DNA of 37,960 nt from Dehalococcoidia bacterium. Its GTDB lineage: Bacteria; Chloroflexota; Dehalococcoidia; GIF9; AB-539-J10. The notes under the pieces were generated by a model that had not been told where the DNA came from, did no database searches, and was given only the letters and a program-made list of their open reading frames with translations. Position 1 is the stretch's first letter; each line of letters opens with the position of its first letter. Positions 16,631-19,269 of the stretch are shown piece by piece. The position numbers and the translations under genes are program-made. The stretch spans positions 1 to 37,960 of the forward strand of contig JAUWQI010000002.1 of assembly GCA_030611085.1 (NCBI GenBank). The letters run 5' to 3'.

Positions 16631-16675
16631 TTTCAAAGTTTACCTCAAATTATCCCGGTAATCTTATCCGTTGTG
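16631..16675 (-). pseudogene. Remnant of the 3' end of the APH/P-loop kinase gene
   Basis: CAAATTATCCCGGTAATCTT and the next bases match the 3' end of the kinase gene (about 17714-17741) at roughly 25 of 28 positions, with weaker similarity up to the stop. In the kinase frame it reads TDKITGII, stop, GKL, stop, against MDKIMGII, W, NKL, stop in the kinase. The Trp codon has become TGA, as in the metK remnant. It lies between ahcY and the crotonase gene, so the crotonase gene is bracketed by kinase 3' ends. Confidence 0.65.
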
Positions 16676-16759
16676 TAAGATATCAGTAACTCCACTCATA
16701 AAGACTATCAAAGGCTTAAGAACAACTAAATAATACACAACTGTGATTTAATGGGAGTT

Positions 16760-16787
16760 TAAAAATGAGCAAAGCCCTCGAGCTTTG
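16760..16787 (-). terminator. Probable intrinsic terminator after the crotonase gene
   Basis: On the minus strand CAAAGC, loop TCGAGG and GCTTTG (16770-16787) are followed after CTCA by TTTTT. It lies 17 bp after the crotonase stop. The stem is short but correctly placed. Confidence 0.5.
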
Positions 16788-16803
16788 GAATAATGAGCTC
16801 AAA

Positions 16804-17613
16804 TTACCTTCCTACGAAGGTAGCTTCCCTCTTCTCTAAAAAAGCTTTTACTCCTTCTTTATGATCCTCTGAAGAGCCAGCTATGCTTTCACAGGCAGCT
16901 GCCACCTCTAATGCAGTTCCTAAATCCATTTGAAGTCCCTTATACAACTGAAGCTTAGACAACCTGAGAGCTATAGGGGCATTCCTCGCTATTTTGCTAG
17001 CCAGTGCCTTCGTCTCTCGTTCTAATTCCTGGGTAGGAACAAGCCTATTTAATAGACCTATCTTTTCTGCTTCCTCTCCCTTCACAGAATCTCCAGTGAA
17101 GAGAAATTCGGCTGCTTTAGCCAATCCCATGACACGGGGCATCAACCAAGTTCCACCACAACCCGGTGGAAGCCCCACCCGCGTATAACCCACTCTAAAC
17201 TGGGCATTTTCCGACCCAATCCTTAGATCGCAAGCTAAAGCAAAATCAAAGCCTGCACCCACAGCTGGCCCATTCACCATAGCAATTGTTGGCTTGTCTA
17301 AACTTTGTAGTTTTTGAACTACCAGTTGAATCCCATGCCGAACTGCACGAACTGTCTGTCGCCATCCCTCTCCCGCAACTCCGCTGACAAGCTGTATCTC
17401 CCCCCCTTCCGTCACCTCTCCTCCAGCACAAAATGCCCGACCCGCTCCAGTCAGGATCAACACCCTCATTTCGTCATCCCTAGCCACATCATCAATCGCC
17501 GTTATTAGTTCCTCACCCAAACGAGTATTGACCGCATTTAACCTGTCTGGTTGGTTCATTATGATAGTAGCAATATGCTCTTCTTTCTTCAGGATTACTG
17601 TCTGAAAATCCAT
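16804..17613 (-). CDS. Enoyl-CoA hydratase/isomerase (crotonase) family protein
   Basis: Crotonase-fold enzyme acting on acyl-CoA thioesters. The oxyanion-hole strands are visible: LTGAGRAFCAGGEV and AMVNGPAVGAGFDFALACDL. By eye-alignment the first catalytic Glu of true enoyl-CoA hydratases (in the QPE motif) is replaced here (RVGYTRVGL), while the second is retained (LAKAAEFLFTGD). An isomerase or another crotonase reaction is therefore as likely as hydration. The ATG at 17613 is chosen because AAGGAGGGG precedes it by 5 nt; it gives 269 aa, normal for the family. The gene sits alone between the kinase and its remnant, which suggests insertion. Confidence 0.88.
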   Translation of the reverse strand: MDFQTVILKKEEHIATIIMNQPDRLNAVNTRLGEELITAIDDVARDDEMRVLILTGAGRAFCAGGEVTEGGEIQLVSGVAGEGWRQTVRAVRHGIQLVVQKLQSLDKPTIAMVNGPAVGAGFDFALACDLRIGSENAQFRVGYTRVGLPPGCGGTWLMPRVMGLAKAAEFLFTGDSVKGEEAEKIGLLNRLVPTQELERETKALASKIARNAPIALRLSKLQLYKGLQMDLGTALEVAAACESIAGSSEDHKEGVKAFLEKREATFVGR

Positions 17614-17700
17614 AGTCCCCTCCTTCCCATTAGGAGTATATGCTTTGCTAGCAACAAAATCAAGACTAAAAGTCTCGCTATAACATATCTCCAACCTGGT

Positions 17701-19269
17701 TCACAACTTGTTCCAAATTATCCCCATAATCTTATCCATTGGCTGCGAGGTGTCAAGAATAAAGTGTTGTTGAGGAGAAAATTCAGTTATAGACTCAAAG
17801 CTTTGCTTTTGCATCTCAAATATTTCCCAACGACCATCTGAGGTTGTCACTCCTTTAAGCCTTTGCCCCAGCCTCTTTTTTAGCTCTTCCTCATTCAATA
17901 CGCATTCCAGAATTGTGAAATCGGCTTCCCACTCCTCAGCTAATTTCCTGGCCTGTAGCCTATCCTCTTTTCTCCCGAAGGAGGCATCCAGTATCACCGA
18001 TTGACCTTGAGATAGAATTTTGCCTGCTTGTTTAAACATTTCATTATATGTTTTTGCGGAGAAATCGGCAGCGTAGATACCGCTTTGGAATTCTTCAAAA
18101 CGGTGCTCCGTGGGTGGGATACGGGCTAAGCTTTTTCTGATGACATCGGAGGAGATAACAGCACAGCCTAGCCTCTGCCCCAAGGCTTGAGCCACCGTTG
18201 TCTTGCCTGTGCCTACCATGCCGGCGGTGATAATAAGCAGTGGTTTTATTTTGGCATACGAATAAGCCAGGTCAAAGTATTTCTGGGCGATAGCCATGGT
18301 TGTCTTTTTCTCCTCCTTGTAGATATAGGGGTCGTCGAGCTTAAAACTTTCCACTTTGCCCCTAACATAAGCTCGGTAACATTTGTAGAAGTTGAGCAGC
18401 TTTAATAGCTCCTCATCATGGGATAGCTTCACATAGGTGTTTACTAAGTGATGAGAAAGGTCAGCCCGCTGGTAGCGGTCTAAGTCCATAGCTAGAAAGG
18501 CAATTTCTGAAGCTACATCAGAATACCTGAATCTATCATTAAATTCGATACAGTCGTAAATGCAGACACCGTCGGTAAAGCAAATATGGGCAGCATGAAG
18601 GTCACCGTGACAATCCCTTATTTTGCCTTCAGTCACTCGTTTATCAAACAGGCTGGCATTGCCCAGTATAAAATCGTTGGTATAACTTTTAATGTGGTCA
18701 TAAGATAGTCGGGGGATAGAAACGCCAATGTATTTCTCAGTTTGAGCGAAGTTCTCATCAGTATTCTGGCGAATAATATCCAATTTGCCGAAAGCGGCAA
18801 TCTCGGAGCTTGTTTTAGCTTTTTGGTGGAAGTCCGCCAACTTTTCAGCCACTTTAGCTATCATCTCCTGGGTTACTTGACCCTGGGGCAATAGAACATC
18901 CAGCATGCGGTCTTGAGGCAGTTGCCTCATTTTGACAGCATACTCTATTGGTTTGCCTTCGCCCTCAAGTTGATAGCTGATGGCTGACGGCTGACGGCTC
19001 TCGGTAATTGGCACCACGGCTAAATAAATCTCAGGGCAGAGGCGTCTATTTAACTCAAGCTCTTGGCGGCAAAAGAAACGCCGTTTCTCCAATGTAGTGT
19101 AATCAAGATATCCTAAGTTGACCGGTTTTTTTACCTTATAGACATAGTCGCCGGTAAGGAAGACAAAGGACATCTGAGTTTGAACCAGCTCTATCTTTTG
19201 TGGTTTATGGGGATAAGCCTGGGATTTAAGAAGCGCCTTAACTATAGATGGTAATTCTGATTTTATCAT
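17701..19269 (-). CDS. Aminoglycoside-phosphotransferase-like kinase fused to a P-loop ATPase
   Basis: The N-terminal half is an APH-type kinase fold: YVYKVKKPVNLGYLDY holds the ATP-binding lysine, and HGDLHAAHICF with IYDCIEFNDRF forms the catalytic and metal loops. The C-terminal third is a gluconate-kinase-like P-loop domain (GMVGTGKTTVAQALGQRLG). This two-domain arrangement is a known but poorly characterised family of about 500 aa. I prefer the ATG at 19269 (AGGG a few bases upstream) over 19323. A repeat (TESRQPSAISYQLEGEGK) is inserted in frame in the first domain. The first 18 codons after the start region (19207-19260) recur exactly at 22715-22768, and the 3' end recurs at 16631-16675. 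Confidence 0.85.
   Translation of the reverse strand: MIKSELPSIVKALLKSQAYPHKPQKIELVQTQMSFVFLTGDYVYKVKKPVNLGYLDYTTLEKRRFFCRQELELNRRLCPEIYLAVVPITESRQPSAISYQLEGEGKPIEYAVKMRQLPQDRMLDVLLPQGQVTQEMIAKVAEKLADFHQKAKTSSEIAAFGKLDIIRQNTDENFAQTEKYIGVSIPRLSYDHIKSYTNDFILGNASLFDKRVTEGKIRDCHGDLHAAHICFTDGVCIYDCIEFNDRFRYSDVASEIAFLAMDLDRYQRADLSHHLVNTYVKLSHDEELLKLLNFYKCYRAYVRGKVESFKLDDPYIYKEEKKTTMAIAQKYFDLAYSYAKIKPLLIITAGMVGTGKTTVAQALGQRLGCAVISSDVIRKSLARIPPTEHRFEEFQSGIYAADFSAKTYNEMFKQAGKILSQGQSVILDASFGRKEDRLQARKLAEEWEADFTILECVLNEEELKKRLGQRLKGVTTSDGRWEIFEMQKQSFESITEFSPQQHFILDTSQPMDKIMGIIWNKL
18968..19002. repeat. Interspersed repeat inside the kinase gene
   Basis: TAGCTGATGGCTGACGGCTG followed by ACGGCTCTC belongs to the same style as the GACTGCT repeat in nrdJ. 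It is translated as SRQPSAISYQ. Confidence 0.65.

Follow-up and report, generated by a model that had tools for sequence, protein, structure and literature searches.

A decayed kinase gene end beside ahcY suggests insertion of a crotonase gene into a SAM-cycle operon of a Dehalococcoidia bacterium

How did a crotonase gene come to lie between a kinase gene and ahcY in a SAM-cycle operon, and why does a second, decayed copy of the kinase gene end lie on its far side? The window analysed here, a stretch of 37,960 nucleotides, belongs to a contig (C25) of a Dehalococcoidia metagenome-assembled genome (MAG) of 1.16 Mb and 83% completeness. On the minus strand, a thiolase gene (22925–24220) is followed by PKD-type ORFs, the kinase gene, the crotonase gene, ahcY and metK (Table 1). 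An earlier note on this DNA had read positions 16631–16675 as the last codons of the kinase with a TGG codon changed to TGA, had placed the crotonase gene and its terminator between this remnant and the intact kinase end, and had pointed to the same layout with the same Trp-to-TGA decay at metK. All three observations were borne out.

The similarity was confirmed by pairwise alignment of the remnant with the kinase 3' end. A direct repeat of 28 nucleotides (16646–16673 vs. 17714–17741) is identical at 25 positions, and in a gapped alignment the similarity continues as far as about 16685 towards the 5' side and, towards the 3' side, up to the stop codon of the remnant itself (16635–16633). Translated on the minus strand, the remnant reads TDKITGII-stop-GKL-stop compared with MDKIMGIIWNKL-stop at the kinase end, and the Trp codon TGG has become TGA in the remnant. 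When the whole kinase was compared, the local score of the repeat was 22, against a mean of 11.2 and a maximum of 17 when the intergenic stretch was shuffled 1000 times with dinucleotides preserved (Gumbel p ~2e-5); when only the last 75 nt of the kinase were used, none of 5000 shuffles reached the score (p ~7e-7). A chance match of the remnant, the objection that the earlier note itself had raised, was ruled out by these shuffles. Moreover, no other 28-mer in the window exceeded 17/28 against the kinase 3' end. The crotonase gene and a terminator-like hairpin sit between the two tail copies, and the reading that this gene has a decayed remnant on one side and the intact kinase end on the other is supported. 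As a separate observation, a promoter-like consensus match, TTGACA-16-TAAGAT, lies within the last codons of the intact kinase (17729–17756, minus strand) and could serve the downstream gene.

Table 1. Positions of the genes, gene-end copies and putative signals in the window (all on the minus strand)
Feature	Position	Strand	Basis or remark
Decayed kinase 3'-tail remnant	16633–16685	-	its own stop (TGA) precedes the ahcY ATG by 3 nt; strict 25/28 core at 16646–16673
Shine-Dalgarno-like GAGGT of ahcY, within the remnant	16642–16646	-	12 nt before the ATG; consensus match, putative function
ahcY, S-adenosylhomocysteine hydrolase, 418 aa; adjacent to the scar on its downstream side	15373–16629	-	Pfam AdoHcyase 9.3e-61; next to the kinase gene in most relatives whose kinase has two domains
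Intact APH + P-loop (AAA_33) kinase, 522 aa	17701–19269	-	3' tail core 17714–17741, the source of the repeat
Crotonase/enoyl-CoA hydratase ORF (probable insert), 296 aa from TTG	16804–17694	-	Pfam ECH_1 1.8e-55; probable ATG start at 17613
Terminator-like hairpin 3' of the crotonase gene	16770–16787	-	pattern match
metK	13889–15097	-	Pfam
Decayed metK 3'-tail remnant	10680–10748	-	53/69 vs. 13901–13969, with the TGG codon changed to TGA; an inserted MBL-fold gene and further ORFs (12488–13789 and others) lie between it and metK
SPL-like radical-SAM gene	34648–35613	-	3' tail copied twice
Radical-SAM 3'-tail copy 1	34076–34143	-	62/68, ends at the stop; HicB/HicA module before it
Radical-SAM 3'-tail copy 2	33180–33231	-	47/52, ends at the stop; Phd/PIN module before it
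Kinase 5' codons, copy inside the gene	19207–19260	-	exact 54-bp repeat
Kinase 5'-end copy upstream, beside the thiolase gene	22715–22768	-	exact 54-bp repeat; mirror-image scar, apparently recent
PKD-domain and other ORFs (cargo) between the 54-bp copies	19914–22336	-	Pfam PKD_4 1.5e-36 for 19914–21101

The order of kinase and ahcY in relatives was then compared. Where relatives have a two-domain kinase, its stop codon in most cases lies immediately before ahcY, the distance usually being between a few and about 20 nt, and metK and a homologue of the gene at 8478–10001 follow; in a minority of these relatives the kinase–ahcY gap measures about 100 to 900 nt. None of the other kinase–ahcY loci fetched carries a crotonase gene at this junction. 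Since kinase and ahcY are neighbours in most two-domain-kinase relatives, this synteny, which the earlier note had proposed as a check, indicates that the crotonase gene is an insertion and that the remnant marks the ancestral junction. The cargo is without homology to the ancestral empty site, in which the two genes adjoin each other. The relatives compared all lie outside the window's own genus, and hence include no closely related empty-site strain. The best matches of the crotonase were 55% identical within its own family, at another locus, and 59–61% identical in another family of the class, likewise at other loci; no donor with a kinase–crotonase arrangement was found.

The same junction holds other cargo in close relatives (ahcY 83–88% identical). 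There, the kinase stops after the APH domain, at about residue 339, and the space up to ahcY is taken by a PHP phosphoesterase and a second P-loop kinase, the latter sharing about 29% identity with the P-loop domain of the window's kinase. Several of these loci keep the tail of the lost P-loop domain upstream of ahcY: QPIDKMDEIIWSRL in L043 and L116, PMDTIMEMIWSKI in L068, QTMDTIMKMIWSKV in L123 and LLDTCPSKDNTIGIIWS in L125. The tails of L117 and L121 (ILLDTLLSxDNTIR) and of L041 were weaker against shuffles, and possibly shorter or more decayed tails were seen by eye in L051 and L127. A profile scan of the regions upstream of ahcY in relatives gave clear kinase tails in part of the split-kinase loci only, and none in the f2 and g9 loci. 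The presence of the same scar with other cargo indicated that the cargo at this junction can vary, and that what tends to be retained is the kinase tail. As an observation on the cargo itself, a separate P-loop kinase and PHP phosphoesterase replace the P-loop domain of the kinase in L041, L043, L051, L066, L068, L074, L076, L079 and others; this pair is 73–86% identical across loci and the APH domains there differ more, a degree of conservation that suggests either slow evolution or horizontal spread of the pair.

The tails in the sister genera also raised the question of whether the window's scar is older than its present cargo. The ancestor shared with these genera might already have had the tail as an ahcY leader, together with the P-loop kinase and PHP cargo, and the window's lineage might later have regained or kept the full kinase and swapped that cargo for the crotonase gene. 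The window scar could then descend from the relatives' ancestral event, and the crotonase gene would not be the original insert. The same kind of tail beside ahcY in the sister genera is consistent with such a history, and the kinase tree nests the window among the APH-only (split-kinase) genomes. However, trees of ahcY and of the P-loop domain placed the window, in weakly supported positions, near relatives with fused kinases, so that loss and regain of the kinase need not be assumed. Pairwise identities between tail copies, being few in number, did not discriminate between the lineage's own insertion and an inherited scar. We consider an inherited scar unlikely, and an insertion in the window's own lineage is preferred.

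The pattern recurs at metK, at an SPL-like radical-SAM gene and at about ten more loci, in this genome and in at least one relative. In most relatives, metK is directly followed by the homologue of 8478–10001. A scan of the ahcY–metK, metK–g8 and g8–g6 gaps of relatives gave no convincing remnants, so the metK scar has so far been seen in the window only. Two small ORFs within the metK insert (10870–11444, plus strand) resemble, by eye, an AbrB-type antitoxin and a PIN toxin. At the radical-SAM gene, two displaced ends are stacked with the older cargo further downstream (HicBA and Phd/PIN modules), as in arrays of the T6SS or Rhs type. This gene was present in 2 of 40 relatives searched at 1e-60, and its empty site is accordingly read from the single locus L008, where the gene and the homologue of 31444–32334 lie 29 nt apart. 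Across 32360–35613, HicBA, Phd/PIN, DUF433 and a second HicA are stacked after the radical-SAM gene, partly separated by its 3'-tail copies.

A mirror-image scar was found at the other end of the kinase gene, where its 5' codons are repeated exactly over 54 bp beside the thiolase gene, with PKD-domain and other ORFs between the copies; the ORF at 21026–22336 gave no Pfam match. Thiolase and kinase genes are adjacent in L053, L054 and L059. Because the contig comes from a MAG and this repeat is exact, an assembly artefact was weighed together with chance similarity as the source of the copies. The shuffle tests speak against chance. Copies that are 75–90% identical are not expected from assembly joins, the exact repeats of the genome showed no pile-up of lengths at one k value, and homologous scars occur in independent relatives, all of which make chance or artefact extremely improbable.

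Gene-end copies were further surveyed in about 740 kb of the own genome together with the window, and in 351 kb of the relative G047, among low-copy, non-ORF targets and with loci grouped by hand. Copies of 3' tails lay downstream of the gene at 14 loci and upstream at 2, and for copies of 5' heads the upstream loci numbered 7 and the downstream loci 2; these counts are indicative, several loci being weak or in repeat-rich regions. The direction of copying was non-random (21 vs. 4, p ~5e-4), and the excess of 3' over 5' scars was not significant in this survey (14 vs. 7, p ~0.09). The copies measured 28–292 nt with ends that vary relative to the stop codon, and they began 38 to 291 nt before the stop, differing between loci, as would be expected of an end joined without long homology. 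Two cases of gene-end copying in relatives were also noticed. At L176, the 3' end of a 493-aa ORF has an exact 89-bp copy (8726–8814 and 12373–12461) 3.6 kb downstream, with ORFs between them that look toxin-antitoxin-like by eye. At L217, in G047, an 845-aa gene (736–3273) has stacked copies of its 3' region downstream, at 5076–5294 (209/219) and 6684–6750 (56/67).

These data bear on two further explanations. Tandem duplication of the kinase end, or of the whole kinase, followed by insertion and by decay of the extra copy, would likewise leave one copy intact and the other decayed, and would require no anchoring of recombination in the kinase. Against it, neither the rest of a second kinase nor duplicated flanks left a trace, and since the same structure is found around unrelated cargo at many loci, a separate coincidence would have to be assumed at every one; we regard such a history as very unlikely. 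Site-specific integration at gene 3' ends deserves more weight. Here a small element would carry an att site copying the last codons of its target, the integrase would act in trans, and the remnant would be the distal att copy. Integration of this kind gives the same layout of intact end, cargo and old end at the ancestral junction, and it readily accounts for stacking, for example of the two radical-SAM tail copies between toxin-antitoxin modules. An intact target gene with a distal copy of its end was indeed observed, although recombination anchored in the kinase predicts this too. Neither a fixed core common to both ends nor a linked integrase was found: the targets are unrelated genes, and the window cargo examined by Pfam contained no integrase. 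The variable lengths and ends of the copies argue against a fixed recombinase core, and mirror-image copies occur at gene 5' ends as well. An integrase with a fixed core thus fits less well than anchored recombination or the crossover of a circle, and site-specific integration appears quite unlikely.

We therefore favour, with a probability of roughly 0.6, a horizontally acquired crotonase gene that was inserted at the kinase–ahcY junction by recombination anchored in the kinase at one end and by an illegitimate event at the other. Incoming DNA would pair by homology within the conserved upstream gene, so that the kinase serves as the anchor, and its non-homologous end would be joined to the chromosome, illegitimately or through short homology, a few dozen bases ahead of the resident kinase's stop codon. 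The product would be an intact recombinant kinase, then the cargo, then the old 3' tail of the resident kinase attached to ahcY. That one end was joined by homology in a conserved gene would agree with the finding of an intact kinase next to a decayed copy of its tail. Similar events, repeated and anchored in either the upstream or the downstream gene, may have given rise to the other scars in the genome. Variable joints, unrelated anchors on either side and unrelated cargo fit homology-anchored recombination with an illegitimate end, or crossover of a circle; the final structure is compatible both with linear homology-facilitated illegitimate recombination and with a single crossover that brings in a circle bearing both the cargo and a copy of the tail.

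Why the old tail has stayed beside ahcY is suggested by its position. Now non-coding, it was probably retained because it holds the ribosome-binding site of ahcY, and perhaps a promoter, as judged from consensus matches to such sites. The GAGGT within the remnant is the window's best Shine-Dalgarno-like match for ahcY. In the scars of L041, L117, L068, L123 and L125, a GGAG derived from the old Trp-Ser codons lies 11 or 12 nt from the ahcY ATG, and the intact junction of L009 has a Shine-Dalgarno-like site at the same spacing of 11–12 nt; in split loci without a visible tail the spacing is mostly 3–9 nt. L043 is an exception, since its tail lies about 85 nt upstream of ahcY and cannot serve as its Shine-Dalgarno site.

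A broader proposal follows the same lines. In this family of Dehalococcoidia, a standing process might insert individual genes or toxin-antitoxin modules where conserved genes end and leave short copies of the anchor's end, which would persist by supplying the downstream gene with a leader (ribosome-binding site and promoter); we put this forward tentatively, as possible but doubtful. Scars of this kind document the way in which conserved operons gain genes in these bacteria. They make gene gain readable, giving the ancestral neighbour, the order of events (from stacked copies) and their relative age (from the divergence of copies), and in uncultured Dehalococcoidia with small genomes they would let insertion events be counted. 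Furthermore, a model of anchored recombination argued so far mainly for toxin loci would become testable on housekeeping operons.

Several known systems resemble this structure. In the minimal mobile elements of Neisseria, different whole-gene cassettes lie, depending on the strain, between the same two conserved genes, and this variety of cassettes between fixed genes resembles the kinase–ahcY junction; we know of no tail remnants of anchor genes in the definition of these elements. No paper describing the gene-end scar pattern in Dehalococcoidia was found. The displacement arrays of T6SS effector-immunity modules in Vibrio cholerae are similarly built: a new module enters downstream of a conserved anchor and pushes older genes back, the 3' end of the displaced effector can remain, and repeated events build an array, for which homology-facilitated illegitimate recombination has been proposed (PMC5361080). 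In contrast to those arrays, the anchors here are housekeeping genes (kinase, metK, radical-SAM gene) and the upstream gene is intact; the cargo (a crotonase, an MBL-fold protein, type II toxin-antitoxin modules) is metabolic or of the toxin-antitoxin type and does not consist of a toxic effector with its immunity gene. In Rhs loci, the core gene is likewise kept and displaced 3' ends accumulate downstream as dissociated tips, for which recombination with circular intermediates was proposed (PMC2935791); however, Rhs genes exchange the C-terminus itself for a new one, whereas here the anchor's C-terminus is unchanged and the copy left behind is no more than a short tail. Experiments in Acinetobacter, Pseudomonas stutzeri and S. 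pneumoniae, as cited in PMC2884548 and PMC5361080, also describe homology-facilitated illegitimate recombination, with one homologous and one illegitimate end and insertions beside conserved sequence; as cited there, they concern single events, whereas here the process is deduced from scars that arose naturally in uncultured bacteria and have since decayed. Small variable segments in E. coli have largely been ascribed to illegitimate recombination (PMC2884548). Taken together, the scar beside ahcY belongs to a known kind of displacement scar, now seen on housekeeping operons, and its recurrence within this genome is unusual.
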